From Anaerolineae bacterium (GTDB lineage: Bacteria; Chloroflexota; Anaerolineae; Anaerolineales; Villigracilaceae), in NCBI GenBank assembly GCA_018648685.1, contig JABGQT010000134.1, forward strand, positions 1 through 64,000: 64,000 bases of DNA. Reading direction: 5' to 3'. The translations under genes and the position numbers were made by a program. The notes below the pieces were generated by a model, which had not been told where the DNA came from, searched no databases, and worked only from the letters and a program-made list of their open reading frames with translations. This document shows positions 40,676 to 62,575 of this stretch, in pieces. Each line of letters opens with the position of its first letter. Within the stretch, counting starts at the first letter, position 1.

Positions 40676-43255
40676 ATGAAATTTATACTTAATGGTCAGG
40701 AAAAAGAATTCAACGGCGATCCTGAAATCACTCTACTAACCTACCTGCGTGAGCATGAAAATATCACATCCGTAAAGGATGGCTGCTCTGGGCAGGCATC
40801 TTGCGGAGCCTGCACCGTCGATATTGATGGAAAATCGAAATTATCTTGCATTACTCCCATGAAAAAGATTGGCGAGGCACAGATCACCACGCCCGATGGT
40901 ATCGGCGAATATAGGCGCGAAGTTTTTGCCAATGCCTTTGCAGAAAAAGGCGGCGTTCAATGCGGATTTTGTACGCCCGGCATTGTTATGCGTGCCGATA
41001 CCCTCATCAAGAAAAACCCAACGCCTTCAGAAGACCAGATCAAGCAGGCACTCACCCCGCATATTTGTCGCTGCACAGGCTACACGAAGGTTGTTGACGC
41101 AATCGGCTATGCAGCAGAAGCCATTCGGGATGAGAAAGAGATTCCCGTGCCAACCAGCGACGGAAAATTGGGATCACGACATCCCAAATATCAGGCGCAG
41201 GATTTGGTACTCGGTGAGCATAAATATACGGATGACCTCCGCTTCGAGGGGATGGTACACGGCGCTCTGAAATTTAGCGAATACCCCCGTGCCAAAATAC
41301 TGGATATCGACACCCGAGAAGCTGAGGCTGTGGCAGGCGTGCTGCGCATCTTCACCGCCGACGATGTGCCGGGTGAGCGTACTATCGGCTTAATATCACA
41401 AGATTGGCCGCTGATGCTAAAGAAGGGTGAAATCACCCGCTATCTTGGGGATGTGATCGCAAGCGTAGTTGCCGAAAGCGAGGCAATTGCCCGTGATGCA
41501 ATGAGCAAGATAAAGGTCACGTACGAAGCGCTGGAAGTTGTCAGCGATATGCACGCGGCAATGAGACCAGAATCCCCGAAAGTGCATGAGGGCGGCAATA
41601 TCCTATCCCACCCCGTTTTTGTGCGTGGCGATATGGAAAGTGCAAGAAAAAATTCTGCCTTCATCTCAAAGGGTGTTTACGAAACACAGCGCATCGAGCA
41701 CGCATTCATGGAAGTCGAAACAGCAGTAGCGATGCCCGACGGCGAGGGCGTAAAAGTTTATTCGCAAAGTCAGGGAATTTATGAAGACCAAATCCAGATC
41801 GCAAAATTGCTCGGATTGACAAAAGAGCAAGTGCGCGTGATTTTAGTGCCTAACGGCGGCGGATTTGGCGGCAAAGAAGACCTGACCGTGCAAGGACACG
41901 CCGCGCTGATGGCGAAATTGCTCGGCTTGCCTGTCAAAGTACACCTGACAAGAGATGAATCAATTATCATGCACCCGAAACGGCATCCGGTTTGGATGAA
42001 TTACGAATTGGGCTGTGATAAAGAGGGGCTGCTGACCTTTATCAAGGCGCGTTTTGTAGGCGACACAGGCGCTTATGCTTCAGTTGGGGCAAAAGTGCTT
42101 ACCCGTATCGCCAGCCACGCGGCTGCGGCATATGATGTCCCCGCGACTGATATTGAAGCCTTTGCAGTTTATACGAATAATTTGCCCTGCGGCGCAATGC
42201 GTGGGTTTGGTGTCAACCAAGCCACATTTGGGATGGAAAGCTCAATTGACGATCTCTGCGAACAAGGTGGTTTCGACCGATGGCAGTTCCGCTACGATAA
42301 TGCGCTTGAAGACGGCTCGATGACCACGACAGGTCAGGTTTTGCTGGGCGGCGTAGGCGTCAAACGTGCCCTTGAAGCGATCAAAGGTGAATATGAAAAG
42401 ACAAAACACGCCGGCTTGGCTTGCGGATTGAAAAATACCGGCATTGGCAATGGCATGCCCGATGAATCATCGGCGTTAGTAACGATTGTTGCACCAGACA
42501 AAGTTGTGATCGACCATGGTTGGACAGAAATGGGGCAAGGCGTAAATACCATTGCAGCTCAATTGGTCTGTAACGAAACAGGTATTCACCCCGACTTGAT
42601 CGAAGTACGCGTAGATACGATTTCTGACCAAAATGCGGGCATGACAACCGCTTCTCGCGCAACATCCCTGCTTGGAAACGCACTTTTGGATGCTTGCAAA
42701 AAACTCAGCACCGACCTAGAAAATAATACCCTTGCTGATTTGGTAGGCAACGAATATTTTGGTGAATGGATCGTAGATTTTACGACCAAACCTGAGATAA
42801 CAGATAACCCCATTACCCATTATTCCTACAGCTATGCAGCACAACTCGTTTCCATTGACGATGACGGTCAAATAGACAAAGTGACCGCCGCCCACGATGC
42901 GGGTAAGATTTATAACCCGATGCTCTTTGAAGGGCAAGTTGAGGGTGCTGTCCACATGGGGATCGGCTATGCAGTTAGCGAAGACTTACCGATGGAAAAC
43001 GGTGTTCCGCTCAGCACGAATTTGCGAAAAATGGGTATTTTACGTGCAAAAGAAATGCCCCCCGTTGAAGTGATCGGTGTTGAAGTACCAGACCCCTTAG
43101 GCCCTTATGGTGCCAAAGGCGTTGGTGAGATTGGATTAGTTCCCACAGCCGCTGCAGTCGCAAATGCACTCTATCAATTTGATGGGGAGCGCAGAACGAA
43201 GTTCCCGATGAAGTTGGCGAAAAAGAAGAAAAAGCCAAATTTGATTAAGCTATAA
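40676..43255 (+). CDS. Fused 2Fe-2S / molybdopterin hydroxylase, selenium-dependent xanthine dehydrogenase type
   Basis: CSGQASCGACTVDIDG, CGFCTPGIVMRA, HICRCTGY; GGGFGGKED; CGAMRGFGVNQ; MGQGVNTIAAQL; GAKGVGEIGLVP; ISP and Moco domains in one ORF. Confidence 0.85.
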   Translation: MKFILNGQEKEFNGDPEITLLTYLREHENITSVKDGCSGQASCGACTVDIDGKSKLSCITPMKKIGEAQITTPDGIGEYRREVFANAFAEKGGVQCGFCTPGIVMRADTLIKKNPTPSEDQIKQALTPHICRCTGYTKVVDAIGYAAEAIRDEKEIPVPTSDGKLGSRHPKYQAQDLVLGEHKYTDDLRFEGMVHGALKFSEYPRAKILDIDTREAEAVAGVLRIFTADDVPGERTIGLISQDWPLMLKKGEITRYLGDVIASVVAESEAIARDAMSKIKVTYEALEVVSDMHAAMRPESPKVHEGGNILSHPVFVRGDMESARKNSAFISKGVYETQRIEHAFMEVETAVAMPDGEGVKVYSQSQGIYEDQIQIAKLLGLTKEQVRVILVPNGGGFGGKEDLTVQGHAALMAKLLGLPVKVHLTRDESIIMHPKRHPVWMNYELGCDKEGLLTFIKARFVGDTGAYASVGAKVLTRIASHAAAAYDVPATDIEAFAVYTNNLPCGAMRGFGVNQATFGMESSIDDLCEQGGFDRWQFRYDNALEDGSMTTTGQVLLGGVGVKRALEAIKGEYEKTKHAGLACGLKNTGIGNGMPDESSALVTIVAPDKVVIDHGWTEMGQGVNTIAAQLVCNETGIHPDLIEVRVDTISDQNAGMTTASRATSLLGNALLDACKKLSTDLENNTLADLVGNEYFGEWIVDFTTKPEITDNPITHYSYSYAAQLVSIDDDGQIDKVTAAHDAGKIYNPMLFEGQVEGAVHMGIGYAVSEDLPMENGVPLSTNLRKMGILRAKEMPPVEVIGVEVPDPLGPYGAKGVGEIGLVPTAAAVANALYQFDGERRTKFPMKLAKKKKKPNLIKL

Positions 43256-43260
43256 GCGAA

Positions 43261-43296
43261 AGAGCGTGGATGAAATTTCATCCACGCTCTTTTTTA
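43261..43296. terminator. Bidirectional terminator
   Basis: AGAGCGTGGATGAAATTTCATCCACGCTCT perfect 30-bp palindrome plus T6. Confidence 0.92.
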
Positions 43297-43329
43297 TTCT
43301 ACAACTTTCAAGAAAGTTTTGGCAAAGAA

Positions 43330-44478
43330 TTATTCTTGCTCCGTATCTTCCTCTGCTACCTTCTCTTTCTCTTCTTCCTTCTGCGCTTCCCACGCTTCCA
43401 ACAAATCTTCGCGTAATTCTGGTTCTGTACCCATGATCCCCGCTCTGAGATAACGCCCGATCACGAGCGTAGAGGCAATTACGGGAATGATCACAATTGC
43501 GCTCAAAATGCCCTGAAGGAGCACAGCCACGATAATGGCAATAAAGACCAAGCCTTCATGCAAGTGAACACTACGCCCCATCAGACGTGGACGTAACCAG
43601 ATATTTTTCAGGTTAATGAGCACCATATAGATCACCAGCACCAGCACGCCAAACCAGAAGTTGGAAAGCGGCAAATAAAGTGATCCTTCAAGCAAAGCCA
43701 CCGCAATGGCCACAATTGCTGCGATCAAGGGGCCAAGATCGGGGATGATGGTCAATATACCTGCCAAGATACCAATGATCAATGCTCCGGGTAAGCCGAT
43801 TGCGAGCCAAGCTATGGTAAAAACAACCCCGACAATAAACATCAGTGCGATCTGGCTGAGCAAATAGGCGGCCCAGAGTTCCTTGATCTCTAAAAAGATC
43901 ATGCGAGCTTCACGCCTATATACTTCTGGTGCTTGGCGGATCAGCAACTCCCGCAATTTTCCCCAATCCAGCAAGAGATAATAAACTGTTACAATAATCA
44001 CAAAAAACCAGGCCGCATTACGAGAAGTACTCTCAATAATATGCAGCGCTTGTTCTGGCAAACTCGTTATAACTGCAAGAACGGAGTTTTCCAATTCACC
44101 AAGATAATCGCTCGCATCCAAAACCAAAAAAGTCCCAATGCGAATCGGTTCGCTCAAAAAGAGCAAGGTCTCTTCATATATTCGCACCAGATCATTCGAG
44201 AAAACCTGAATTTGCGCAATCAACTCAGGGACAAAAAGAACAGGAGAAGCCAACACCAAGCCCAAAGAAAGGAAATAAACCAAATTTACAGCCAGCTTAT
44301 GCTTCAATCCAAAGCGGTTCTTCATCAAATTGACAAGCGGCATCATGATATAAGCAAACAATCCGCCAATGATCAAAGGTTGAAACATCGGGCGCGTATA
44401 CCATCCCAAAGTGACAATAAAAATGATTATCAATATTAATGTCAGATAACGTGCTGGCGTACTCCATTTTTCTCTCAT
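43330..44478 (-). CDS. AI-2E-family (PerM/YdiK) transporter
   Basis: Multi-TM; IPDLGPLIAAIVAIAVALLEGS; LMGRSVHLHEGLVFIAIIVAVLLQGILSAIVIIPVIAS. Confidence 0.88.
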   Translation of the reverse strand: MREKWSTPARYLTLILIIIFIVTLGWYTRPMFQPLIIGGLFAYIMMPLVNLMKNRFGLKHKLAVNLVYFLSLGLVLASPVLFVPELIAQIQVFSNDLVRIYEETLLFLSEPIRIGTFLVLDASDYLGELENSVLAVITSLPEQALHIIESTSRNAAWFFVIIVTVYYLLLDWGKLRELLIRQAPEVYRREARMIFLEIKELWAAYLLSQIALMFIVGVVFTIAWLAIGLPGALIIGILAGILTIIPDLGPLIAAIVAIAVALLEGSLYLPLSNFWFGVLVLVIYMVLINLKNIWLRPRLMGRSVHLHEGLVFIAIIVAVLLQGILSAIVIIPVIASTLVIGRYLRAGIMGTEPELREDLLEAWEAQKEEEKEKVAEEDTEQE

Positions 44479-45716
44479 AGATTTTCTTTAACAGCCTCCA
44501 AAGTCGGAGCGATGATGGGCGCTTCGCTGACAGCTTTTAGCGCGGCGTTCACATCCTTGAGACCGCTACCTGTATTCAAAACCAAAACGGGATCATCCCG
44601 ATTCACAACGCCTTTTGAAATTGCTTCCGCTAAACCAGCGTATGCTGTCGCACCGGCAGGTTCCGCAAAAACGCCAACCTGACCAAGTTCCGCTATGGAG
44701 GCAATGATCGCATCATCATTAACTAAAACGTACTGTCCATTTGTCTCGGTAGCAGCACGAAGCGCACGAACGCCATCGCTGGGCATATCTACAGAAATAC
44801 TATCAGCCGAAGTTGTCGCAGAAATGGCTGCGATTTCTTCAGTCCCTGCGTTATACGCGTTTGCAATCGCGGCAGAACCTTCTGCCTGCACACCGATAAT
44901 ACGCGGCATCTGTTTTAGCCAACCTAATTTCTCTAAATCTTTAAAGCCCTTGTGAATACCAGAGATAATATTCCCATCACCTACAGAAACAAAGACGGTC
45001 AAAGGTTTATCATTTTCTCCAAGTGCTTTAAGAGACCATTCCCAAATCTCAAAGGCAGCAGTCTTTTTGCCTTCAACAGTGAAGGGATTATAGCCTGTGT
45101 TGCGGCAATACCAGCCAAATTCGTTCGCAGCTTTGACTGCTAATTCGACAGAATCATCATAAGTGCCGTCCACAAGCATCACTTCTGCGCCAAAAACGAG
45201 TAGTTGGGCAATTTTTGCCACTGGTGCAGTTTTGGGCGCAAAGATGACCGATTTTTGCCCAACGGCGGCAGACATCCCTGCGAGGGCTGCGCCTGCGTTG
45301 CCTGTAGAGGCAGTTACAATCACTTCTGCACCGATCTCTTTGGCACGTGCGACCAAAATGGCACTGGCACGATCCTTGAAAGAGGCAGTGGGGTTAGAGC
45401 TTTCATCTTTGAGCCAAAGATTATCCAACCCTAGTTTTTCTGCCAATTTTGGCAAAGCATAAGTCGGAGTCCACCCAGCGGCATAGAGAGGTGTCTCTTC
45501 CCCTCCGGGATTTGAAACAGGCAGCAAAGGCAAATATCGCCAAAGGGATGTTTCTGTACGACAAGTGATGTCGTCTGGTTGATATTTTTCTTTGATCGCT
45601 TCGTAGTCAAGAAGGACATTCAAGTTTCCGCCGTCTGCAGGGCAAGTATAAGTCACTTCTTCTGGAGCATATTTTTTTCCACAAAGAGAGCATTCGTAGC
45701 CAAGAAATTTATTCAT
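44475..45716 (-). CDS. thrC: Threonine synthase (fold-type II PLP enzyme)
   Basis: N-terminal zinc-ribbon-like CSLCGKKY...CPADGG; WLKDESSNPTASFKDRAS PLP lysine; ASTGNAGAALAG. Confidence 0.85.
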   Translation of the reverse strand: MNKFLGYECSLCGKKYAPEEVTYTCPADGGNLNVLLDYEAIKEKYQPDDITCRTETSLWRYLPLLPVSNPGGEETPLYAAGWTPTYALPKLAEKLGLDNLWLKDESSNPTASFKDRASAILVARAKEIGAEVIVTASTGNAGAALAGMSAAVGQKSVIFAPKTAPVAKIAQLLVFGAEVMLVDGTYDDSVELAVKAANEFGWYCRNTGYNPFTVEGKKTAAFEIWEWSLKALGENDKPLTVFVSVGDGNIISGIHKGFKDLEKLGWLKQMPRIIGVQAEGSAAIANAYNAGTEEIAAISATTSADSISVDMPSDGVRALRAATETNGQYVLVNDDAIIASIAELGQVGVFAEPAGATAYAGLAEAISKGVVNRDDPVLVLNTGSGLKDVNAALKAVSEAPIIAPTLEAVKENL

Positions 45717-45787
45717 TTTTTCACCTTTGGTAGATTGATTATACAAAAGATTTCAGGAGGTATTTTATCATTGCTTTCTCAAGAAGA

Positions 45788-48356: not shown

Positions 48357-49322
48357 TTACAATCCTCGCTCCCCACGAATATAGGGCACACCGAGCGCGG
48401 CAGGTGCACCAAGTCGTTTTTTCGTTGCTGCACGAGAGCCCCAAACAAGAGCAATGATCGTTAGAACGAAAGGCATCATCTGAAGAAAGAAGCCATAATT
48501 TGAATTGACATAGAGCGGGTTAGCAAATCCAAAGAGCAGGGCGGGACCTTGAAGATCAAGGATGAAGCGGCGGAGCATACCAAAGAGATAACCGCCAAAA
48601 GCTGCCCGGATCGGATTCCACTGAGCAAAGATGACCAACCCAACTGCTATCCAGCCTTGGCCAGATGTAGTTTGGGTACTGTACCAACCCGGGGAAACGG
48701 AAAGGCTGATCGTTGCGCCAGCCAGCCCTGCCAGCATCCCGCCAACGAAAGTGTAAAAGTAACGTACACCATAAACGCTGATACCGAGCGTATCCGCTGC
48801 GGAGGGTTTTTCACCAACCGCGCGGAGGTGCATCCCTGGGCGGGTTTTGTAGACATAATAGGCTGCCATTGGCGCAAATATATAGCCGACATAAACCAAT
48901 AAACTATGTTCAGAGAAGAGAACTGGCCCTAGAAAGGGGATTTGGGAGAGCAAGGGAATATCCACGATGGGAATTGTCGGAGGATGTTGACCTGTGAGAC
49001 CTTCTCCCAAAACGAGAGCAAGCCCAGTGCCAAGAAAGGTCAACGAAAGTCCACTAACGACTTGATCTGCCTGGAAGTGAATCGTCACTAATCCGTGAGC
49101 AAGACTTAAAATCCCACCTGCTAGCATGGCGACGATTAAACCAACCCAAGCGTTTCCTGTGGCGAGCGAGGTGCTGAATCCCGCCATCGCGCCGAGAAGC
49201 ATCATGCCTTCGACTCCGAGATTAAGAATACCTGAGCGTTCGGCAAAGATTTCGCCAATTGCGGCAAAGAGAAGGATCGTACCGGTCGCTAAACCTGCGT
49301 GTAGAATGATTTCTATATTCAT
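48357..49322 (-). CDS. BMP-type nucleoside/simple sugar ABC transporter permease
   Basis: IGEIFAERSGILNLGVEGMMLLGAMAGF. Confidence 0.93.
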   Translation of the reverse strand: MNIEIILHAGLATGTILLFAAIGEIFAERSGILNLGVEGMMLLGAMAGFSTSLATGNAWVGLIVAMLAGGILSLAHGLVTIHFQADQVVSGLSLTFLGTGLALVLGEGLTGQHPPTIPIVDIPLLSQIPFLGPVLFSEHSLLVYVGYIFAPMAAYYVYKTRPGMHLRAVGEKPSAADTLGISVYGVRYFYTFVGGMLAGLAGATISLSVSPGWYSTQTTSGQGWIAVGLVIFAQWNPIRAAFGGYLFGMLRRFILDLQGPALLFGFANPLYVNSNYGFFLQMMPFVLTIIALVWGSRAATKKRLGAPAALGVPYIRGERGL

Positions 49323-50426
49323 TTATGCCTCCTGCTCTAAGCGAACCAGGCGAATTTTATAGCGCAGTAAAACATCGCTGCTAATGACCATGAAAAGGAT
49401 AATGCCTTGCAAGAGATTGGATAAACCTGAAGGCTGAATTTCACGACCGGCAACAATGAGCGCACCAAAGAGAATGGAGACGATGATGACGGCAAAAGGG
49501 TTAAGTTTTGCCAGCCATGCCACAATAATGCCTGTGAAACCGTAGCCCGGGGAAATTTTTTCTTGTAAGCGGTGCACAACACCGCTGATCTCAGACATAC
49601 CAGCCAAGCCAGCGAGAGCACCAGAAAGCATCATCACGAGAATGAGATTTTTGGTGATATTAAGCCCCGCATAACGCGCTGCTTGTGGATTATCACCGAT
49701 CAACTTGATTTCGTAGCCCCAATGACTACGCTCTAAAATCCACCAAATGATAATGGCAGCGATAATGCCAAAAACCACGCCCAAATGCAGGGTAATGCCA
49801 GAGAATGCTTTATACTCTTTTGCCAAGTCCGAGAGGCGGGGCAACCACGCAATTTTCTCGAATTGAGGAGTCATCTGGAAGCCTGCATCGCTCCACTTAT
49901 CAAAAATCCAGAAATTATTCCAATAAAGAGCTATATAGTTGAGCATGAGGGTGATGATAATTTCGTTGACTTGATATTTGGCTTTTAGATAACCAGGGAT
50001 AAAGCCCCAAATTGCGCCACCGATCATGCCCATGATCATCATTAATGCGATAACGATAAATTTTGGCGTGGTTTCCAGATTGACCATCGGGACAAGGACG
50101 ACCAGACTTGAGAAGAAAGCACCCATATAAAACTGGCCTTCTGCGCCGATATTCCAGAGCTTCATTTTGAAAGCAACGGCACAAGCCAAGCCAACCATAA
50201 TGAGCGGGGTTGCTTTTACCATCGTGTCAGAGAACACTGCCCAAGAGCCAAATGTGGCGGTGAAGAAGAATTTCAGAACCCGCAAAGGATCACCACCGAT
50301 TATTTTCAGGACAATACCGCTAATGATAAAAGCGACGATAACTGAAAGAAGCGATGTTACTGCCGGTAACCATTTGGGATAGTCTGCTGTGCGTTTTTCA
50401 AAAATTACTGTGTAGGGGAGATTCAT
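49323..50426 (-). CDS. BMP-type nucleoside/simple sugar ABC transporter permease
   Basis: NIGAEGQFYMGAFFSSL; GYGFTGIIVAWLAKLNPFAVIIVSILFGALIVAG. Confidence 0.93.
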   Translation of the reverse strand: MNLPYTVIFEKRTADYPKWLPAVTSLLSVIVAFIISGIVLKIIGGDPLRVLKFFFTATFGSWAVFSDTMVKATPLIMVGLACAVAFKMKLWNIGAEGQFYMGAFFSSLVVLVPMVNLETTPKFIVIALMMIMGMIGGAIWGFIPGYLKAKYQVNEIIITLMLNYIALYWNNFWIFDKWSDAGFQMTPQFEKIAWLPRLSDLAKEYKAFSGITLHLGVVFGIIAAIIIWWILERSHWGYEIKLIGDNPQAARYAGLNITKNLILVMMLSGALAGLAGMSEISGVVHRLQEKISPGYGFTGIIVAWLAKLNPFAVIIVSILFGALIVAGREIQPSGLSNLLQGIILFMVISSDVLLRYKIRLVRLEQEA

Positions 50427-52241: not shown

Positions 52242-53513
52242 CTAGTCAAGTTCCGGCAATTCAGCAGTAATGTTCTCGTTCCACCAGTACATACAGGTTT
52301 CGCAAGGAACACCGAATTGAGCAAAGCCGTCAAGATCGATCTGTTCAAGGCTGACACCATCTTCGAGGACAACATTGCCCTGATTGTCGGTGATCGGTCC
52401 TTTGAAGACATCGAAGCGGGTGAATTCACCAGCTAACATGGCAGCCAATGTGTCTTCGATCAGAGCCAAATCTTCCGCAGGGAGATCTTTTACGCCAGGC
52501 ATCATTTCTTCACCTTCCATAAAGCCAAGCAAGCCCATAGCACCAGTGTCAGCATCGAAATATTCCCAACCGCCAACCCAGGTTCCAGCTCGGGATTCTT
52601 CTACAATACGACCATAGACAGGACCCCAGTTCCAATACATGGAAGTGAGACAGGCATCTACAACACAGTTGCCGCTATAGTCATAAGTGATGCCCCATTT
52701 GCCCTCGGGAGCAACTTCTGCGGGAGCGGGGGTATCAGCACCAGTCATAACGACCTGTGCGCCACCATCAAAGAGGGAGGATGAAGCTTCTTTTTCGAGG
52801 ATAGGATCATGCCAGGTGAAGATCCAGCGAACGTCAACTGTACATTCGGGGCAGGTTTTCTGTGCGCCCAAAGCAAAAGCATTACCCAAGCGAAGTTCTT
52901 CGGGGATGGGGAAAGTGGCAATATAACCCAGTTTGGGGTTGCCATCCACTTTTGCGCGGGAGCCAGCTAACATGCCGGCGAGATATTTCATATCTTCCAT
53001 CGCGCCCATCAAGTTACCAAAGTTGGCTTCATTCGATTTGAAACCACTGATGTGAATGATGTCAATATCAGGGAACTCATCGGCGACAACTTCAGAAGCA
53101 TCCATGTAGCCAAAGGAAGTGGTGAAGATTACATCGAAGCCTTTGCGGGCCAAAGAGCGGATAACCTGCTCTGCATCGGCGCCTTCAGCAACGATTTCAA
53201 CATAAGCTGTGTGAACGTCTTCTACGTTCTCTTCAACCCACATACGACCAACATCGTGAGCCTGTGTCCAACCACCATCATCATGGGGTCCAACATAGAC
53301 GAAAGCAACATTATATTTGCCATCTTCAACGGTCGGAATTTGATAAGCACCCTCTTCAGCGGGAGCTTCTTCTGCAGCGGGAGCCTCTTCGGCTGCGGGA
53401 GCTTCTTCTGCTGCCGGTGCTTCTTCGGGGGCTGCTGCACCACCGCCACAAGCGGAAAGCACAAAAGCTGCAATCGTTAGAACACTAAAAATCCACAAAA
53501 CTTTCTTATTCAT
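52242..53513 (-). CDS. BMP-family (PnrA-like) substrate-binding lipoprotein
   Basis: Lipobox VLSACGGG; YNVAFVYVGPHDDGGWTQAHDVGRMWVEENV. Confidence 0.93.
   Translation of the reverse strand: MNKKVLWIFSVLTIAAFVLSACGGGAAAPEEAPAAEEAPAAEEAPAAEEAPAEEGAYQIPTVEDGKYNVAFVYVGPHDDGGWTQAHDVGRMWVEENVEDVHTAYVEIVAEGADAEQVIRSLARKGFDVIFTTSFGYMDASEVVADEFPDIDIIHISGFKSNEANFGNLMGAMEDMKYLAGMLAGSRAKVDGNPKLGYIATFPIPEELRLGNAFALGAQKTCPECTVDVRWIFTWHDPILEKEASSSLFDGGAQVVMTGADTPAPAEVAPEGKWGITYDYSGNCVVDACLTSMYWNWGPVYGRIVEESRAGTWVGGWEYFDADTGAMGLLGFMEGEEMMPGVKDLPAEDLALIEDTLAAMLAGEFTRFDVFKGPITDNQGNVVLEDGVSLEQIDLDGFAQFGVPCETCMYWWNENITAELPELD
53351..53440 (-). repeat. 18-nt-period tandem repeat encoding the EAPAAE linker
   Basis: EEAPAAEEAPAAEEAPAAEEAPAEE directly after the lipobox. 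Confidence 0.9.
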
Positions 53514-53631: not shown

Positions 53632-55644
53632 TTACTTACAACCTAAATCAGCCATGACAAGCGACAAAACTTCCTCTTTTTCTGGACTATTGGATGTTTC
53701 CGCAGCTATACGCTCCCACAGAGGACAAAGCAAAGGCTTCATATAGGATGGAGAAACCCGCTTCGCACTTGTGGATAGTTGCCCGGCGTTTTCCCAATCA
53801 TTTGTGTGAGCATAAGCCTCGATAAAGACGAAATTCTCCGTTGGGTCATTGGGATGGTCTCCAGAAGCGAAAGCTTTCTTGCCTAGAGAAACTACCTGCG
53901 CCCAATCACCGCGCTGCCGAGCTAAATCTGCTTTCTGGAAGTAGTAGCACCACCCATGCTTGGGTTCAGGGGCATAGATTTCTGGCAAAACTGGTTCACC
54001 ATCTACCAAAATCAACTCAGGACGAGAAAAAGATGCAGCATCTCGCAAAAGAAGGTCTGCGATAAATTTATTTTCAGAATCAATCTCAGGATCAACGATG
54101 TGGAGACATCCCGGCGGAGAGAAATTAATCAAAAGCATCTGCGAGGTATTGCCGTTAAATTCTCCAGCAATAAAATTATGTTCAAGAGGCATATCTGCTT
54201 CAAGTTTTTCTCCATCCACGCCAAAGCGCGTGCGCGGATAAAAGAGCATATAGGGAATTTCTTCTGCGTTGGTCTCTGGCGCGTAAATCCAGTTGAGGGG
54301 TGCACTCAGAGAATTATCGGCATAAAATTTGAGTGCGCCTTCGTTAAGCAAAATAGTTGTATTTTCTTCCAAGTCAGGGATGCGCCAAGACATCTGCCAA
54401 AAGAGATTTTTCTGCACCTTCCAATCTCGTCGAAACTCATCTGCCCAGAGGAACTGCCTACCCGCAGAGAATGCGATTAAAAGAGCGAAAAAGGCTATAC
54501 GCAGATTTCGGCGAGGAATTAAAGAAATTAGACCGAGAAGAATTAAAACGCTTCCCAGAATAAAGGGCAATGTCGCTCTATTTGCAGGAAATCCTAAAGA
54601 GACGGGTAACCCCGTCAGCCAGAAAGGGATGCCCGCCAAGAGAGCGGAAAAAAGCCCAAGGGTGAATAATCGGCTTCTAATACCACTTTCTATCTTATTA
54701 TCGTTTGCTTCTTCTCGTGTATTTTTGTAAAGAGCAAAGAAGGCTAGCATAAAAGAAATGAAAATAATGCCAAGATAAATAGTGATCGTAACTTTGCCCT
54801 GCAATTCAAAATCGGGTGGGATAAATGCTTGCCCCCATGCGGCAATGAGCGTTGTCCACAAGCTCAGAAGAATCGTTTTGGTCAAATTCCAGAGAGTCAA
54901 GAGGGGCGCGATCCGTAATTCAGAGAGAAGGCTATATTCATAGGTCTCGTTGATGATAAAGAAGATACGTCCGATGATGGCGGCGAGGAAGATGATGAAA
55001 TAAGGGAGGCAAGTTAAAAACATGCGGCGTATCCGCTCTTTGAATTCAGCTATATTTTCGAGCATAATCCATGCAATCGGGATGCGGAGCAATTCCAAAA
55101 GGAAAAAATATTCCCCAAGGAATAAATTCGCGGCAGAAGAAAGCATCCCAAGAATTGCCCAGAACTTTGAGAAACGCGTCTGCTCAAAAGATTTAAGCAT
55201 GGCAAAGAGAGAGAAAAGAAAGAAAATAAGTGCAAAAAAATGAGAGCTATAAACAAAAGAAACGAATTGTTGGTTAAATCCGGGATAAAGAAGGAATAGT
55301 AAGCTCGCCATGAGGGGGAGCGTTTTCTGACGAGGGAAAAGTTGAAAGAAAATTTTCCAGACAAGAACGCCACTTAGCCAACGGAGAACGAGGGCAAGGA
55401 TTTGCCAGGCAAAAGGTTTATAAGGCAGGAATGACGTGAGGCTTTGATATAGGATGCCAACCACAGGGCGATTGGTAGAGAAATAACGAGTGAGAGCTTC
55501 TGCGCCAAGTTGATAGCGAATCCAGCCGATGGGGAGATCATCCCAGTAGAAGCCAAGTTGGGGCGCGAGAATACCATAAGCAAGCGCGGTAATGGCTGCG
55601 AGGATAAAAGGCGGGGATTTTATGAAAGCGAGGAGGCGTTTCAT
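53632..55644 (-). CDS. Large multi-TM membrane protein (possible GT-C-like)
   Basis: Many TM segments; likely start MKRLLAFIKS at 55644, because the upstream extension translates a hairpin repeat. Confidence 0.6.
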   Translation of the reverse strand: MKRLLAFIKSPPFILAAITALAYGILAPQLGFYWDDLPIGWIRYQLGAEALTRYFSTNRPVVGILYQSLTSFLPYKPFAWQILALVLRWLSGVLVWKIFFQLFPRQKTLPLMASLLFLLYPGFNQQFVSFVYSSHFFALIFFLFSLFAMLKSFEQTRFSKFWAILGMLSSAANLFLGEYFFLLELLRIPIAWIMLENIAEFKERIRRMFLTCLPYFIIFLAAIIGRIFFIINETYEYSLLSELRIAPLLTLWNLTKTILLSLWTTLIAAWGQAFIPPDFELQGKVTITIYLGIIFISFMLAFFALYKNTREEANDNKIESGIRSRLFTLGLFSALLAGIPFWLTGLPVSLGFPANRATLPFILGSVLILLGLISLIPRRNLRIAFFALLIAFSAGRQFLWADEFRRDWKVQKNLFWQMSWRIPDLEENTTILLNEGALKFYADNSLSAPLNWIYAPETNAEEIPYMLFYPRTRFGVDGEKLEADMPLEHNFIAGEFNGNTSQMLLINFSPPGCLHIVDPEIDSENKFIADLLLRDAASFSRPELILVDGEPVLPEIYAPEPKHGWCYYFQKADLARQRGDWAQVVSLGKKAFASGDHPNDPTENFVFIEAYAHTNDWENAGQLSTSAKRVSPSYMKPLLCPLWERIAAETSNSPEKEEVLSLVMADLGCK

Positions 55645-55651
55645 ATATAGG

Positions 55652-55678
55652 TAGGGGCGGGTCTCAGACCCGCCCCTA
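55652..55678. repeat. Operon-embedded palindromic hairpin repeat
   Basis: TAGGGGCGGGTCT-C-AGACCCGCCCCTA perfect 13-bp arms. Confidence 0.85.
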
Positions 55679-55690
55679 TAAGAAAGGAAA

Positions 55691-56635
55691 CTACGGAACA
55701 ATCCAGGTGCCGGTTTCACCGTTCAAAGCACGTTGAATATTCGGAGGATCGGTAACGAGGGCTTTTTTGCCACCTTCTTTCAGGAATTTGACAATTGCCT
55801 GAACTTTAGGAAGCATACTGCCGGGGGCAAAGTGACCTTCTTCGATATATTTCTCGGCTTCAGCGACGGTCATTTCATCGAGCCATTCTTCGTTGTCTTT
55901 GCCAAAGTTGATGGCGATTTTTTCAACCGCAGTAGAAATGATGAGCAAATCTGCGTTGATATTATTCGCCAATAAACCAGAGGCAAAATCTTTGTCGATA
56001 ACGGCTTCAACGCCGCGCAGATCGCCATTTTCTTTCTCGACAACAGGAATACCACCGCCACCAACTGCGATAACGGAGAAGCCGCCTTCGATCAGTCCTT
56101 TGATGGCATCCACCTCAACAATATTCATGGGCAAGGGTGAGGGAACAACACGCCGCCAACCGCGCCCAGCATCTTCAACAAAATCCTGTCCTAATGCCAT
56201 ACGCTCTTTTGCAGTTTCCTCGTCAAGAAAAGAGCCAACCGGTTTGGCTGGTTTCTCAAACGCAGGGTCATCTGCGCTGACTTCAACTTGCGTTACAACG
56301 GTAACTGCTTGTTTGTTAATGCCACGTTTCTTGAATTCGTTACGCAGGGCTTTTTGCCCCATATAACCAATGGCGCCTTGTGTATCTGCACCAGCGTAAT
56401 CCATAGGAACGGGATGTAACTCACCAGCAGCAAGCTCGGAACGACGAAGGATAAATCCAACTTGTGGACCATTACCATGCGTGATGACAACGTCCCAACC
56501 GTCTTCGATCATCCCGGCAATATGACCCATCGTCTCTTTGATGGCGTCAAATTGATCAGGAATAGATTTTCTTGTTTTGTCAACAATAAGGGCGTTTCCG
56601 CCAACTGCGACAACAGCGACTTTTTTTTCTGCCAT
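55691..56635 (-). CDS. arcC: Carbamate kinase
   Basis: VVAVGGNAL; VITHGNGPQVGFILRRSELA; MDYAGADTQGAIGYM; AVGGGGIPVV. Confidence 0.94.
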   Translation of the reverse strand: MAEKKVAVVAVGGNALIVDKTRKSIPDQFDAIKETMGHIAGMIEDGWDVVITHGNGPQVGFILRRSELAAGELHPVPMDYAGADTQGAIGYMGQKALRNEFKKRGINKQAVTVVTQVEVSADDPAFEKPAKPVGSFLDEETAKERMALGQDFVEDAGRGWRRVVPSPLPMNIVEVDAIKGLIEGGFSVIAVGGGGIPVVEKENGDLRGVEAVIDKDFASGLLANNINADLLIISTAVEKIAINFGKDNEEWLDEMTVAEAEKYIEEGHFAPGSMLPKVQAIVKFLKEGGKKALVTDPPNIQRALNGETGTWIVP

Positions 56636-56638
56636 TTC

Positions 56639-57619
56639 CTACCTCATCGTCAAAGCCATAACGGCTTTCTGCGCGTGCATACGGTTTTCAGCCTGGTCAA
56701 AGACAACCGAGTTGGGGCCATCCATAACTTCACTGGTAACTTCAACATCGCGGTCAGCTGGAAGCGGGTGCATATAAATCGCATCCGGTTTCGCCAAATC
56801 CATTTTGCGCTGATCGGTGATCCAGTGCGCGTATTTATCTTGGATAGCTTTACCTTCGGCAGGATCTTGGGTGGTCAACAGAGGACCCCAGGATTTTGCG
56901 TAAACGACATCTGCATCTTTGAAAGCGGCTTCCATATCATCGGTGACTTCAAAACCAGCACCAGCGATACGCGCTTGTTCTTTAGCTTGCTCCATGATCT
57001 CAGGCATTAGTTTAAATTCTGGTGGATGCGCGAGAACTACATCTAAGCCGAAACGGGGCATTTGCAAAATCAAGGATTGCGGCACGGAGATCGGTTTCAG
57101 GTAAGAAGAAGCATAAGCCCAAGAAACGACCATTTTCTTGCGTTTCAGGTTGCGACCTTTCTTCTCGATGATGGTCATAATGTCTGCCAAACATTGGTGC
57201 GGATGATAAATTTCGCACTGCATGTTGAGCACAGGAACGCGGGATGCGCTGGCTACCAAGTTCAAATAACGGTTACCAATGCCCCAATCCACGTGACGGA
57301 TGGCGATGCCGTCGAAATAACGACCGAAAATTTCTCCCATTTCTGTCTCGGTATCACCGTGGGAAATTTGTGTGGTGCGGCTTTCGATGAAAGCTGCGTG
57401 TCCACCCAGTTGAGCCATACCAGACTCAAAGGAGCCGCGTGTGCGGGTGCTGGAGAAGAAGAAAAGCATCGCCAGTGTCTTGTCGCGCAAATAAGCATGG
57501 GATTCACCAAGTGCGCGTTTGCGCTTTAAGTCCCAAGCTACATCCAAGATGGTGTCGACTTCTTCTTTTGTGAAGTCAAGGTCACCGATTAAATCTCGCC
57601 CTCGTAAATCTGATTGCAT
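56639..57619 (-). CDS. ygeW: YgeW-like knotted carbamoyltransferase
   Basis: FFSSTRTRGSFESGMAQLGGHA; HPHQCLADIMTI; WAYASSYLKPISVPQSLILQMPRFGLDVVLAHPPEF; MHPLPADRDVEVTSEV. Confidence 0.8.
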   Translation of the reverse strand: MQSDLRGRDLIGDLDFTKEEVDTILDVAWDLKRKRALGESHAYLRDKTLAMLFFFSSTRTRGSFESGMAQLGGHAAFIESRTTQISHGDTETEMGEIFGRYFDGIAIRHVDWGIGNRYLNLVASASRVPVLNMQCEIYHPHQCLADIMTIIEKKGRNLKRKKMVVSWAYASSYLKPISVPQSLILQMPRFGLDVVLAHPPEFKLMPEIMEQAKEQARIAGAGFEVTDDMEAAFKDADVVYAKSWGPLLTTQDPAEGKAIQDKYAHWITDQRKMDLAKPDAIYMHPLPADRDVEVTSEVMDGPNSVVFDQAENRMHAQKAVMALTMR

Positions 57620-57644
57620 AATTATTCTCCTCTTTTATATATTC

Positions 57645-57673: not shown

Positions 57674-57693
57674 GGGATAACTGATTTTTGGAA

Positions 57694-58647
57694 TTACTCC
57701 ATTTTGCCGCTGACCAATGCCAGCAATGCCATGCGCATGACAACACCGTTAAAGGCTTCCTGCCAATAGCGAGACCAGCGGGTAATGTCAACATCAGCAG
57801 GGATTTCGTCCATACGGGGCAGGGAGTGGAGCAAGATCGCATCCGATTTGGCTTTGTTCTTGAGCAAATCAACAGTGATTTTGTAGTTGGCGGGGGTCAT
57901 GCCCTCATCACCGGTGCGTTCGTCGCGAGCTTTGGTATAGTCAGGTTGGACAGTCGGTTCAACGAGAATCACATCCGCATCGCCGATCACATCGCCAACA
58001 TGCTCGGCGTAGCTGTAATCTAATGCCATTGCGTCGAAATCTTTTTCGTACTCTTCGGGCATTTCCATGCCAGGAGGTGATACAAAAGTGATCGGGCAGT
58101 CAAATTGTGTAAGTGCGTGACCAAGCGAGTGCATGGTGCGCATACGCATATCGCCAACGGCAACCCAGCGCAAACCGTCAATAGTTCCTTTTTCCCGTAA
58201 AACGGTATAAAGATCGGTCAAAATCTGGGTAGGATGTTCGCCCCATCCATCACCGCCATTAATAACAGGGATAGATGCCCATTTGGCTGCTTCTTGGGGA
58301 GCGCCTTTCTGGAAATGGCGCATCACGATCATATCGCCATAGAATTCAAGCATCTTGACGGTATCTTTGATCGATTCCTGATAGAAGTCACCGGCGCGGG
58401 TCATCTTTGCGTCAGAGAAACCGGTTACATGACCACCCAGACGATGCATGGCGGCTTCGTGTGCCAAGCGGGTGCGGGTGGAAGGCTGATAAAAAGCTGT
58501 TACCAGCGTCTTGTCAGCCAAGAGATCGGTATTCTGGCGGTTGCGAGCGATAGGCTCCAACTCTTCAGCGATCTCGAAAACACGGAAGAATTCATTACGT
58601 TCGAACTCTTTTAAAGAAAGAATGTCACGACCTGCAAAACTACGCAT
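57694..58647 (-). CDS. Aspartate carbamoyltransferase-like protein, acceptor specificity uncertain
   Basis: YQPSTRTRLAHEAAMHRLGGHVTGFSDA; NGGDGWGEHPTQILTDLYTV; 80s-loop and RxQ acceptor motifs not canonical. Confidence 0.85.
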   Translation of the reverse strand: MRSFAGRDILSLKEFERNEFFRVFEIAEELEPIARNRQNTDLLADKTLVTAFYQPSTRTRLAHEAAMHRLGGHVTGFSDAKMTRAGDFYQESIKDTVKMLEFYGDMIVMRHFQKGAPQEAAKWASIPVINGGDGWGEHPTQILTDLYTVLREKGTIDGLRWVAVGDMRMRTMHSLGHALTQFDCPITFVSPPGMEMPEEYEKDFDAMALDYSYAEHVGDVIGDADVILVEPTVQPDYTKARDERTGDEGMTPANYKITVDLLKNKAKSDAILLHSLPRMDEIPADVDITRWSRYWQEAFNGVVMRMALLALVSGKME

Positions 58648-58695
58648 ATTGAACCTCCTAAGTTCAAGAAAAACGATTTGTTTTGAAACTTACGC

Positions 58696-59937
58696 TTATC
58701 CCTCTTGCATTTTCTCCAATAACATATTGGGGAATAAAGCATAGAACTCTGTAGCATCTACAACTTCCTTCAGCGGCACTTGTTCCATACCCCTGTGCGC
58801 GAATTTCTCATCGCCAGGACCAAATCCGATCGAAGGAATGCCAGCCTTACCAGCCCAGTAAGTACCATTGGTTGAGAAATCCCAAGTATCCAACTCACGT
58901 TCTTCACCCCAAAGGGTTTTGATCGTATTTTGACCTGCTTGGGTCATGGGGTGGTCATCTGCCTGTAACCAGGCTGGGTAATATTTCGAGACAGGGAATT
59001 TGAACCCTGTATAAGATGGTTCATCATAAAAGAGTTCTTCTACTTTGATCTCATCTTGTAGATAATCAGGAATCAACCCTTTGATCTGCGCGATCACATC
59101 ATCATGGGGTTCATTAGATGTGATTCGGCGATCAAGGTAGATCGAAAATTCATTAGGAACTGCGTTAAGCGACCCAGTGGTTACTTTAAGGTCAGTCACA
59201 GCAACGGTAGGATTGCCTTGTAATGGATGGGAACCCAAACCAAGGCGAAGGCGACGGTCTAACTCACGAATGTGTGTAATGACGGCTGCCATTTTATATA
59301 CTGCATTATCGCCTAGATAATGAGTTGCCGCATGGGCAGATTTCCCGGAAGCCGTGATTTTCAGTTCGATACGACCTTTGTGACCGCGATAGACTTGCAT
59401 TTTGGTCGGCTCACCGATGACGACAAAGTCGGGGCGGATGCCTGGGTCTACTTCCACGAAGGTATTCGGGGCGATACCGTCACACCACTCCTCCATATTG
59501 CCGAAATACCAAGCTGTTATGCCATCGAGCAAACCCAAATCACGGGCGAAGCTTAGTCCGTATACCATACCAGGCGTGGAGCCTTTTTCATCTACTGCAC
59601 CGCGTGCAAAAAGGACACCATCTTCAACCTTACCAATGAAAGGATCCCATTCCCAATTATCTGGGTCACCGATGCCGACGGTATCAATATGCGAATCGTA
59701 AACGATCACTTTTTCGCCATTCCCGATACGCCCCATGATATTGCCCATTTTATCGAAGCGGACTTCGTCGAAACCCAGTTTATTCATCTCGGCTGCGATG
59801 CGCTCTCCAACTTCTTTCAGCTCGCCATTCATACTGGGAATAGCAACAATATCTCTCAAAAATTGGATGATATCGTCTTGCGCGGCATCAACACGCTTCT
59901 TGATCTCTTGAACAGCTTCTTCTCTTGAAAGTTCCAT
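58696..59937 (-). CDS. ygeY: M20-family hydrolase, YgeY-like (selenium metabolism-linked type)
   Basis: VYDSHIDTVGIGDPDNWEWDPF; GAVDEKGSTPGMVYGL; MEEWCDGIAPNTFVE; located beside the ygeW-like gene. Confidence 0.8.
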   Translation of the reverse strand: MELSREEAVQEIKKRVDAAQDDIIQFLRDIVAIPSMNGELKEVGERIAAEMNKLGFDEVRFDKMGNIMGRIGNGEKVIVYDSHIDTVGIGDPDNWEWDPFIGKVEDGVLFARGAVDEKGSTPGMVYGLSFARDLGLLDGITAWYFGNMEEWCDGIAPNTFVEVDPGIRPDFVVIGEPTKMQVYRGHKGRIELKITASGKSAHAATHYLGDNAVYKMAAVITHIRELDRRLRLGLGSHPLQGNPTVAVTDLKVTTGSLNAVPNEFSIYLDRRITSNEPHDDVIAQIKGLIPDYLQDEIKVEELFYDEPSYTGFKFPVSKYYPAWLQADDHPMTQAGQNTIKTLWGEERELDTWDFSTNGTYWAGKAGIPSIGFGPGDEKFAHRGMEQVPLKEVVDATEFYALFPNMLLEKMQEG

Positions 59938-59969
59938 TAGCTTAAAAAATCTCCTAAATAATAAATATT

Positions 59970-59994
59970 TATCAACGATAACGAAACGTTGATA
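59970..59994. promoter_or_regulatory. Candidate operator: inverted repeat between gntR and ygeY-like genes
   Basis: TATCAACG-N9-CGTTGATA. Confidence 0.45.
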
Positions 59995-60711
59995 TTAACG
60001 TTGTATGTGCCCCAAAATATGAAAATCGAAATAACCCGGTAAGAAATAGCCTAAGCTGTAGTCGATCACCTGATCTGAGTCTAAATAAATTCTTGAGCTC
60101 AGGCGCAGCAAAACATCGCCACGCTGAATTTCAAGAGCTTTTGCTACAGAAGATGAAGCACTGCTTGCATTTACACCGATCTTTGCAACCGTTGGCAAAT
60201 CTCCGCGCCCGAGCATAAAATCCAACACAGAGCCGTTGAATTGCTTCGGTAGATCATCAACCGCCAGAAATTCAGTAGGCAGAATATCGACAAGATAAGC
60301 TGCTGCGCGCTCGGTGGTACTGATCACACGAGAGACCCGCGTGAGGGATGTGTTCAACGGAACGCCCAACTTTTGGGCTTGCTTCTCGTTGGCCAGCACT
60401 GTCTCGACCGATAGATTTCCGACTGTAACCGACAACCCCATACGCTTTGCCATTGTCTGGATGCTTTCTAGTACCTCAAGACCGCTCTCTAAAACTGGCG
60501 CATCCCCGACCACAAAAGTCCCCGCCCCCTGCCGACGACGGATCAGCCCTTGCGTCTCAAAAGTACGCATCGCCTCACGCAAGGTCGCGCGTGACACGCC
60601 TAATTGCTTTGCCAACTTAGGCTCCGAAGGCAAACGCTCCCCAGCAGGGACCGAAGCGATCAATGCGCCTAGATCAGCTTGCAATTTCTGAAAAGGTGAA
60701 ATTAAAACCAT
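59995..60711 (-). CDS. GntR-family transcriptional regulator
   Basis: wHTH AGERLPSEPKLAKQLGVSRATLREAMRTFETQGLIRRRQGAGTFV; UTRA/HutC-like C-terminus. Confidence 0.92.
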   Translation of the reverse strand: MVLISPFQKLQADLGALIASVPAGERLPSEPKLAKQLGVSRATLREAMRTFETQGLIRRRQGAGTFVVGDAPVLESGLEVLESIQTMAKRMGLSVTVGNLSVETVLANEKQAQKLGVPLNTSLTRVSRVISTTERAAAYLVDILPTEFLAVDDLPKQFNGSVLDFMLGRGDLPTVAKIGVNASSASSSVAKALEIQRGDVLLRLSSRIYLDSDQVIDYSLGYFLPGYFDFHILGHIQR

Positions 60712-60739
60712 AATAATTCCTGTAACATGTTGCGTGATG

Positions 60740-60775
60740 CGTGTTGCGTGACTTTTTCACCAAACACGCAACACG
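60740..60775. repeat. Short-word inverted repeat
   Basis: CGTGTTGCGTG-N14-CACGCAACACG; flanking direct repeats of TGTTGCGTGA type. Confidence 0.65.
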
Positions 60776-60784
60776 AAACACACT

Positions 60785-62575
60785 CTATTTTTCTATAATC
60801 GGTACAAACTCAAAGTTCGTCACATCTACCAGCCCAAGATCAGAAATCCGCAATTCGGGAATAACGACCAAAGCTAATAAAGACAACTGCATATTTGGAT
60901 TATTCAACGTAGAGCCACAAGCCTTGAAAGCATCCAAAACAGTGGATGCTTTTTTCGCCACGATCGAAGCCTCTTCTGTGGACATCAAGCCCGCGATCTC
61001 CAATTCAACCAAACCAATGACCTCGCCATCTTTGACGACCACTTGTCCGCCGCCGATCTCAGCGAGTTTATTAGCTGCAATCGCCATATCAGCTTCGCTT
61101 GTGCCTGTCACGATCATGTGATGGCTATCGTGTGCAACTGTTGAAGCGATGCCACATTTTTCAGTGAAGCCAAATCCACTCACCAATCCTACCGTCACAT
61201 CACCTGTGGCCTTGTGTCTTTCGACAAGAGCCAATTTTGCAATATCACGCTCAATATCAACATGGATCTCACCATCTTTCGGCTGGATTTTCAACTTTAG
61301 ATGCTTGGTCGGTGCCTGATTTTCGATGACACCAATCACATTCGCCGTAACGCTCTTGCCCGACTTTGCTTCCGTTACGAGAGCAAAATCTTCGGCTTTG
61401 AGCGGGTGCCCCAAATGGACAGAACCCCGTGCCCAATCTGGATAGGCAACTTGCGGCATCTGGATTGTCATCTCTCCGTTTTGAGCAATCACCTGCCCTT
61501 TGGCAATGACCATCTCCGGGTGAAAATCGTTCAAATCGTCAACGATGAGTATATCTGCCCAACGACCGGGAGCGATCATGCCAATTTCACGGGATAAGCC
61601 GAAGTGCTCGGCGGTGTTTATCGTCATCATCTGAAGTGCGGTCATTGGAGGCAAGCCCACATCAAGTGCGTGGCGCAGCACTCTGTCCATATGCCCATCA
61701 TTAACGAGCGTGCCCACATGAGAATCATCCGTACAAAGCAGAAAACGGCGCGAATCTAATTTATGCTTGAGAATGGCATCCACTTGGGTTTCAACATCCA
61801 GCCAGCCAGAACCATAACGGAGCATGGCTTTCATGCCCTGACGAACACGGGCAATAGCATCTTCGGGGCGCGTGCCTTCGTGGTCATCTTCGATGCCCGC
61901 GGCAACATAACCATGAAAATCTCTGCCCAAATCGAGGTTGGGATAATGTCCACCGATGATTTTTCCCGCATCACGCGTGGCGGCGATTTCAGCCATCATC
62001 TTCTCGCTGGCATTGAAAACACCGGGAAAATCCATCACTTCGCCAAGACCGATAATGCCATCCCAATGCAGGGCTTCGGCAACATCGTCGGGTGTGATCT
62101 CTGCGCCCGGAGTCTCAAAGCCCGGCGCGGAGGGAACACAAGAAGGAATTTGCACCCAAACGTGGATGGGTTGCTCGGCGGCATCATCTACCATTAGCTT
62201 GACACCTTTAAGACCGAAAACATTGGCGATCTCATGCGGGTCAATGAACATGCCCGTTGTGCCGCGTTTAGCAACAGCGCGTACAAATTCTGTTACTGTA
62301 ACCATCCCCGATTCGACATGCATGTGACCATCGAGCAAGCCGGGGACAAGGTGTTTACCGCCGGCGTTAATGATCACTGTATCTTTCGAAACACAATGTG
62401 AAGCATCTTTGCCAACATAGGCGATATGTCCATCTACAATGGCGATATCGGTTTTCAAAATAAATTCACCCGACTGAACGCTGACCCAAACACCGTTACG
62501 AATGACCATATCGGCAGGGACGCGCCCCATGGCGACGTCAACGAGTTTTTTTGTGAGTTCGAGAGAAGTTTTCAT
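60785..62575 (-). CDS. ade: Adenine deaminase
   Basis: LVPGLLDGHMHVESGMVTVTEFVRAVAKRGTTGMFIDPHEIANVFG; CTDDSHVGTLVNDGHMD; TVAHDSHHMIVTG. Confidence 0.93.
   Translation of the reverse strand: MKTSLELTKKLVDVAMGRVPADMVIRNGVWVSVQSGEFILKTDIAIVDGHIAYVGKDASHCVSKDTVIINAGGKHLVPGLLDGHMHVESGMVTVTEFVRAVAKRGTTGMFIDPHEIANVFGLKGVKLMVDDAAEQPIHVWVQIPSCVPSAPGFETPGAEITPDDVAEALHWDGIIGLGEVMDFPGVFNASEKMMAEIAATRDAGKIIGGHYPNLDLGRDFHGYVAAGIEDDHEGTRPEDAIARVRQGMKAMLRYGSGWLDVETQVDAILKHKLDSRRFLLCTDDSHVGTLVNDGHMDRVLRHALDVGLPPMTALQMMTINTAEHFGLSREIGMIAPGRWADILIVDDLNDFHPEMVIAKGQVIAQNGEMTIQMPQVAYPDWARGSVHLGHPLKAEDFALVTEAKSGKSVTANVIGVIENQAPTKHLKLKIQPKDGEIHVDIERDIAKLALVERHKATGDVTVGLVSGFGFTEKCGIASTVAHDSHHMIVTGTSEADMAIAANKLAEIGGGQVVVKDGEVIGLVELEIAGLMSTEEASIVAKKASTVLDAFKACGSTLNNPNMQLSLLALVVIPELRISDLGLVDVTNFEFVPIIEK

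Follow-up and report, generated by a model that had tools for sequence, protein, structure and literature searches.

A conserved gene neighbourhood of Anaerolineae that probably encodes a variant of reductive purine degradation with carbamoyl-phosphate-driven ATP formation

Do the purine-related genes that lie together on a Chloroflexota contig belong to a single catabolic pathway, and if so, to which one? We addressed this question in a window of 64,000 nucleotides, positions 1-64000 of contig C172 (JABGQT010000134.1; 73103 nt in full), from a metagenome-assembled genome (MAG) of 3.56 Mb (88.5% complete, 4.25% contamination) whose nearest named relatives, judged by a carbamoyltransferase of the module (CTA), are Anaerolineae. 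A preliminary description of 22 kb of this window had proposed selenium-linked anaerobic purine catabolism in which carbamate kinase (CK) forms ATP from carbamoyl phosphate. We consider it probable, at roughly 75%, that the module serves reductive purine/urate degradation with carbamoyl-phosphate-driven ATP formation. The system would be a version of the reductive uric-acid pathway particular to Chloroflexota, and the 22 kb form one part of it. The core idea of the preliminary description holds; its ring-opening chemistry and two of its gene labels do not.

All module genes named earlier are intact open reading frames, and the xanthine dehydrogenase (XDH), CK, YgeY and adenine deaminase exceed curated cut-offs. 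Thirteen consecutive minus-strand genes, mostly with small gaps or overlaps, run from an 8-oxoguanine deaminase (64178-65560) down to ABC permease 1 (48357), and the window end falls within this module. At its center are CK (55691..56635; YqeA/ArcC type, TIGR00746 374.9 bits vs cut-off 358.25), the YgeW-related carbamoyltransferase CTA (56639..57619), a second carbamoyltransferase, CTB (57694..58647), a YgeY-family M20 hydrolase (58696..59937; TIGR03526 450.3 vs 321.5), a GntR/UTRA regulator (59995..60711; PF00392, PF07702) and adenine deaminase (60785..62593; TIGR01178 518.9 vs 472.5). The proposed parallel with the E. coli ygeW-yqeA region is borne out by identities of 35% (CTA to YgeW), 40% (YgeY) and 52% (CK to YqeA). 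The earlier gene list stands, but it had left out one module member, a threonine-synthase-like (ThrC-like) pyridoxal-phosphate (PLP) enzyme (44475..45746, minus strand).

To define the neighborhood, we mapped forty 20 kb CTA neighborhoods from genomes of the class, together with nearer relatives, regions around XDH orthologues and a further 80 loci from named public genomes, and counted neighbors within 9 kb of CTA at 92 distinct CTA loci with at least 3.5 kb on both flanks. CK was near CTA at 89 of the 92 loci, followed by GntR (64), CTB (63), 8-oxoguanine deaminase (51), adenine deaminase (50), the ABC ATPase (47), the ThrC-like gene (42), YgeY (39) and PALP488 (30). Given these co-occurrence counts, the association is not due to chance, and the module is a neighborhood conserved across Anaerolineae rather than a set of genes scattered in relatives. 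The usual order starts with 8-oxoguanine deaminase, adenine deaminase and GntR and continues with YgeY and/or CTB, CTA and CK, followed by a BMP-type ABC importer, the ThrC-like gene, often a glycosyltransferase-like gene, and PALP488; some CTA neighborhoods also hold SsnA, NADPH:F420 reductase or HyuA. Of 298 genomes sampled from the class, 228 gave a CTA match at E <= 1e-60, although the weaker matches may be other carbamoyltransferases. The cultured species Levilinea saccharolytica (strain KIBI-1; L293) is among the carriers of the module.

The strongest evidence for one pathway, the XDH of the window included, comes from single loci in two distant relatives. In G094, about 25 kb hold CK, GntR, CTB, CTA, ThrC-like, PALP488, F420 reductase, permeases, BMP, ATPase and XDH together with SsnA, 8-oxoguanine deaminase, a flavin adenine dinucleotide (FAD) subunit, XdhD, YqeB and a luciferase-like monooxygenase (LLM) F420 enzyme. 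In G181, one locus combines YqeB, YqeC, MocA, CK, YgeY, CTA, F420 reductase, XDH, SsnA, a deaminase, the FAD subunit and XdhD. Separately, the start of an aminotransferase resembling ureidoglycine-glyoxylate aminotransferase lies beside the G094 purine locus (L191:9493-9999).

The XDH of the window (40676..43255, plus strand) is a fused [2Fe-2S]/molybdenum-cofactor (Moco) hydroxylase that TIGR03311 (940.7 bits vs 830.45) assigns to the Se-dependent molybdenum hydroxylase family; selenium in the enzyme itself is a prediction. No FAD subunit adjoins it, as described earlier, and we located one on contig C201. Like the Se-dependent hydroxylases of E. faecalis (EF2570) and the C. difficile xdh loci (PMC2276186, PMC11448449), the host combines a fused TIGR03311 protein lacking an FAD subunit with selD and YqeB in the genome, but here the XDH lies beside neither gene. 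The host selD (348.5 vs 125 bits; L021:8686-9747) carries an in-frame TGA at the catalytic position, from which SelD is itself predicted to be a selenoprotein. The genome also encodes selB (L027:6225-8129) and YqeB (TIGR03309 319.7 vs 220; 46% identical to E. coli YqeB), the latter with another XDH set on contig C140, and YqeC and MocA adjoin the module in G181. The selenium link proposed earlier is thereby supported at the genome level, and none of the refuting outcomes named in the preliminary description was observed. Apart from the host, about 17 of 199 genomes encode XDH orthologues (61-71% identity). In G181, G084 and G094 they lie 3.6, 6 and 10 kb from CTA (64-66%), three cases against a chance expectation estimated at about 0.1 for genomes of about 4-8 Mb, and congener G305 has a 90% orthologue beside AI-2E and ThrC-like genes. 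XDH is thus linked to the module where present but sporadic in the class; nine genomes sampled from the host's own family gave no match.

CTA is 35% identical to E. coli YgeW (the genome's own ornithine carbamoyltransferases, OTCs: 24-26%). Among the second-substrate residues listed for YgeW (YTCase; PMC4581275), Q98, Q160, S200, K203, K270, D334 and E344 are kept in 39/39 CTA sequences, and the eighth, D124, is C or V; most of these residues are absent from ornithine and aspartate enzymes. In a tree, CTA joins YgeW with a Shimodaira-Hasegawa-like approximate likelihood ratio test (SH-aLRT) value of 97, on a long branch. Where YgeW has the motifs HP[TMF]Q and H[AVC]LP, extra helices and a long 240s loop, CTA has HPHQ with HPLP (115 sequences) or HCLP (22), and its 240s loop and ends are shorter. 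Judged by sequence, CTA is therefore a sister group of YgeW and, by score, motif and length, not YgeW itself: the YgeW-like label given earlier fits the pocket and the identity but not the equivalog family. Because of the 35% identity and the seven of eight conserved second-substrate residues, CTA very probably acts on a substrate of the kind used by YgeW, which in E. coli phosphorolyses diureidopropionate (Li et al., PMC12507026). A role as ornithine carbamoyltransferase was ruled out by the pocket residues and the genome's own OTCs. AlphaFold2 models were poor, with a mean predicted local distance difference test (pLDDT) score of 58 for CTA and 62 for CTB.

Further homologues of the E. coli reductive uric-acid enzymes lie on other contigs. 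Contig C117 carries SsnA (TIGR03314 498.6 vs 455.5; 36% to E. coli SsnA) and, about 15 kb away, HyuA (D-hydantoinase, TIGR02033 539.5 vs 393.25; 37% to E. coli HyuA), along with PALP488 and NADPH:F420 reductase (TIGR01915 205.1 vs 149.8). Contig C201 carries an XdhD homologue (36% to E. coli XdhD over 1012 aa) that misses the TIGR03313 cut-off (697 vs 1101.9), aligns Glu606 and has mostly lost the iron-sulfur (FeS) cysteines, as has E. coli XdhD; it alone among the genome's three molybdenum hydroxylases has the Glu606 segment. The FAD subunit nearby (FAD_binding_5) is 27% identical to E. coli YgfM. The preliminary description, which saw no ring-opening amidohydrolase in its 22 kb and placed ring opening after hydroxylation, had suggested searching the flanks and genome: HyuA, selD and yqeB were found and ygeX was not, and ring opening most likely falls to SsnA and HyuA after urate reduction (PMC12507026). 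As an observation apart, L026:4876-8331 holds a second D-hydantoinase in a row with an AroM-like gene and a PLP gene of diaminobutyrate-decarboxylase type.

Measured against the E. coli cluster (xdhD, ygfM, ygfK, ssnA, hyuA, ygeW, yqeA, ygeY, ygeX; PMC12507026), the host has homologues of XdhD, YgfM, SsnA, HyuA, YgeW (CTA), YqeA, YgeY and YqeB, and a congener has YgfK. It adds CTB, two deaminases (for adenine and 8-oxoguanine), a PnrA-type ABC importer, the F420 reductase, the ThrC-like protein and PALP488. Chloroflexota SsnA neighborhoods were reported to contain an F420-dependent dehydrogenase (PMC12507026); the host SsnA likewise lies near NADPH:F420 reductase, and G094 and G181 likewise hold the LLM F420 enzyme and YqeB in the SsnA locus. 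That study leaves CTB and the purine-uptake and deaminase half of the module undescribed. The xanthinase pathway of clostridia described by Rabinowitz also combines an XDH with anaerobic purine use, but the module enzymes fit the urate-reductive route instead (no search was aimed at a xanthine amidohydrolase). The literature search, which left most subscription papers outside, returned no report of the module in Anaerolineae other than what PMC12507026 remarks on Chloroflexota. The module is a variant of a known system with several unreported features.

Following the enzyme roles described for E. coli and C. difficile (PMC12507026, PMC12990295), the pathway could proceed as follows. The PnrA-type importer would bring in purine nucleosides or bases, adenine deaminase would yield hypoxanthine, and the 8-oxoguanine/guanine-type deaminase would, judged by its family, serve the guanine branch. 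The Se-type XDH, again by family, may interconvert hypoxanthine, xanthine and urate. By homology, and with the XdhD-specific Glu606 kept, XdhD and its FAD subunit on C201 would convert urate to yanthine, which YgfK and/or an F420-linked enzyme would reduce. SsnA would then open the ring, and HyuA would yield 2,3-diureidopropionate. CTA, given its homology and kept pocket, would phosphorolyse one ureido group to carbamoyl phosphate, from which CK would form ATP. YgeY may hydrolyse the second ureido group, or in carriers of CTB this group is perhaps phosphorolysed by CTB to give a second ATP, and a PLP lyase would release pyruvate and ammonia. The whole could run as a fermentation, since oxidation of hypoxanthine to urate (four electrons) would balance the reduction of urate (four electrons).

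The last step has only a tentative candidate. The best YgeX match in the genome is the module ThrC-like protein (26.5% over 226 aa), proposed here, at less than even odds, because no YgeX was found; it keeps the PLP lysine but not YgeX Asp120, which we take to be the base for the D isomer. The module protein is a paralogue of the housekeeping ThrC, since another ThrC-like protein in the genome adjoins a thrB-like gene.

Several points weigh against this pathway. All enzyme roles in the module, substrates included, are predictions of function. CTA falls below the ygeW cut-offs (TIGR03316 186.8 vs 500; PRK07200 194 vs 453), and XDH is absent from most relatives that carry the module. No YgeX was found among the 10 PALP proteins of the incomplete MAG, nor were YgfK, a UacX-type paralogue or an LLM F420 enzyme found in it. 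Finally, the pathway genes of the host occupy three contigs or more, C117 being joined to the rest by binning alone, although the genes form one locus in G094 and G181. For YgfK, an assembly gap is the likely cause. Congener G305 encodes a 1037-residue YgfK (1347 vs 835 bits; 44% to E. coli YgfK) in a locus (L214:2227-19998, contig C109) with CofE, CofD, CofC, the FAD subunit (76.5% to the host's) and XdhD (85%). Host contig C201 carries XdhD and the FAD subunit along with a methyltransferase gene shared with G305, and ends about 135 bp beyond the FAD gene, where G305 carries YgfK. The YgfK of G305, lying with XdhD and F420 biosynthesis genes, qualifies the statement that Chloroflexota lack YgfK/UacX (PMC12507026). 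The genome's only DHO_dh-family gene, considered as a UacX candidate, is likely PyrD. A CofD-family match in the host was provisionally discounted as an F420 marker because E. coli also matches the model and a YvcK-type relative is likely.

We next consider CTB, which the preliminary description called a second aspartate carbamoyltransferase (ATCase)-like protein. CTB has the motifs of group 3 pseudo-ATCases (PMC4016543, Table 1), sharing all four: STRT and HPTQ in 16/16 sequences, HSLP in 85/89 and VEP in about 80/89. The ATCase residues S80 and K84 are replaced by R and Y in 16/16, and the RXQ and HP[LG]P motifs of genuine ATCases (PyrB) are missing. In five sampled relatives (congeners G302 and G305, with G307, G309 and G315), a PyrB scoring 369-374 bits accompanies a CTB-like protein (246-251 bits), and the two form separate clades in the tree; CTB-like proteins are thus not the sole PyrB-like proteins there. 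On the motifs, the loss of S80/K84 and the separate true PyrB of relatives, CTB is classed as a group 3 pseudo-ATCase and not as PyrB. Like the group 2 protein of Nocardioides, which adjoins ygeW, CTB adjoins a YgeW relative; published group 3 proteins, described as marine, adjoin a Na+ symporter, an asparaginase or HyuC, but none of these adjoins CTB in the window (PMC4016543).

That CTB releases a second carbamoyl phosphate, so that CTA and CTB together carry out twin phosphorolysis, is a serious possibility to which we give somewhat less than an even chance. Within 9 kb of CTA, where absence was judged, CTB occurs without YgeY at 49 of the 92 loci, YgeY without CTB at 25, both at 14 and neither at 4. 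This alternation is strong on raw counts (Fisher p 8e-9), but an independent-pairs test on the CTA tree found 2-3 informative pairs, all opposite, and was not significant (p 0.25-0.5); our rating stays below even because the tree-aware test has too few such pairs. Alternatively, the purine module is the same but CTB has a different substrate, such as allantoate/ureidoglycine or some other ureido acid, with YgeY or another hydrolase always taking the second ureido group and one ATP formed per purine. We regard this alternative, too, as a real possibility below even odds. It gains from the non-significant test, from the group 1 pseudo-ATCase Rxyl_2847 being a ureidoglycine carbamoyltransferase (PMC4016543) and from the co-occurrence of YgeY and CTB at 14 loci, and likewise in the host and in congener G305. 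It is less easily reconciled with the 49 loci that have CTB and no YgeY nearby as against 4 with neither, with the CTB-CTA-CK loci of Heimdallarchaeota described below, which have no YgeY nearby, and with the restriction of CTB to the HPLP form of CTA (63 loci vs 0/21 HCLP loci), though this reflects a single clade split. YgeY proteins that co-occur with CTB group together, apart from the others, with one outlier (L207; two changes on the best tree, some forks of which are unresolved). Within the host genus, G299, G300 and G303 carry YgeY and a 79% CTA without CTB, and G302 and G305 carry CTB and a 97-98% CTA, yet the deaminases and GntR stay at 75-91% across these congeners. This pattern suggests that the cassette was exchanged as one unit.

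A rather improbable alternative to reductive purine degradation is that two systems lie side by side, a purine salvage set (deaminases, transporter) and an arginine/agmatine-type amino-acid or ureido-acid fermentation with the carbamoyltransferases and CK. Arginine- and agmatine-type pathways do use the same enzyme pair, and the best matches of CTA by score in the PDB are archaeal ornithine and acetylornithine carbamoyltransferases. CTA, however, has the pocket residues of YgeW and not those of an OTC, the genome has two other OTC-like proteins, the module contains no deiminase gene, and relatives have SsnA, XdhD, XDH and YqeB within this very cluster. Pyrimidine or hydantoin catabolism, in which HyuA, YgeY and the carbamoyltransferases would degrade reduced pyrimidines, is very unlikely: HyuA belongs to the dihydropyrimidinase family and the chemistry overlaps, but the single DHO_dh-family gene is the probable PyrD, and the two deaminases and XDH/XdhD are purine enzymes. 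Least probable of all is that CTB is the genome's biosynthetic ATCase. It does pass TIGR00670 (247.7 vs 236.95), and no other PyrB was found in the incomplete host MAG, but the S80/K84 replacements, the HSLP/VEP motif and the separate PyrB of five relatives speak against it.

Reductive purine degradation may also extend beyond bacteria. Nine Candidatus Heimdallarchaeota loci (L242, L246, L247, L253, L254, L256, L261, L264, L266) carry CTA (83-85% identity), CTB and CK as well as an XDH at 45-47% to that of the host, and eight of the nine hold a divergent hydantoinase. One of these XDHs was scored (TIGR03311 876 vs 830 bits); a MocA-like gene adjoins it, and an AN1 zinc-finger gene lies nearby. 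The contigs have a GC content of about 35%, and a gene arrangement of their own repeats across separate assemblies. In the CTA tree the Heimdallarchaeota nest inside Anaerolineae, with SH-aLRT 99 for their clade. Gene transfer from Anaerolineae to Heimdallarchaeota is likely, though not proven, rather than mis-binning. No report of purine degradation by Heimdall archaea was found in the literature searched. In addition, CTB and CTA (83%) occur on a Spirochaetales contig (L263:8900-10903), roughly 9 kb from a homologue of SsnA that is 49% identical to the E. coli protein.

The remaining genes of the window include the importer, whose description as a four-component BMP/PnrA-like ABC transporter was confirmed. 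All on the minus strand, they are ABC permease 1 (48357..49322; 42/92 loci), ABC permease 2 (49323..50426; PF02653, BPD_transp_2; 44/92), the ABC ATPase (50423..51958; PF00005, ABC_tran, in two stretches) and the BMP/PnrA-like substrate-binding lipoprotein (52242..53513; PF02608, 131.6 bits; 45/92). A membrane protein gene inserted in the operon (53632..55719, minus strand; 19/92) overlaps CK by 29 bp, and another (62606..64000 in the window, gene to 64174, minus strand) is separated from its neighbors by 12 and 3 bp. Both proteins have no Pfam match and a glycosyltransferase-like look; their genes lie inside the purine operon and recur in some relatives. An AI-2E-type membrane protein gene (43330-44478) shares 4 bp with the ThrC-like gene, which it also follows in a few relatives. 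Just upstream of XDH, a putative cyclase (PF04199) and an RhtB/LysE-like gene (39019-40489) showed no conservation with the module.

Few bacteria are commoner in anoxic sediments than Anaerolineae, and nitrogen-rich substrates are known for few of them. The module predicts purine fermentation in this class and would carry reductive urate degradation well outside the gut bacteria. It also offers a candidate function for group 3 pseudo-ATCases and bears on the question of which of the enzymes removes which ureido group (PMC12990295). Should CTB prove to be a second phosphorolytic enzyme, the ATP yield from carbamoyl phosphate would double per purine. The Heimdallarchaeota CTA, at 83-85% identity, suggests that Asgard archaea received purine-pathway genes by transfer. 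As a tentative extension, which taken whole is less likely than not, CTA and CTB may strip both ureido groups for two ATP per purine, in a system that originated in Anaerolineae and was later transferred to Heimdallarchaeia; these could then ferment purines with a Se-type XDH.

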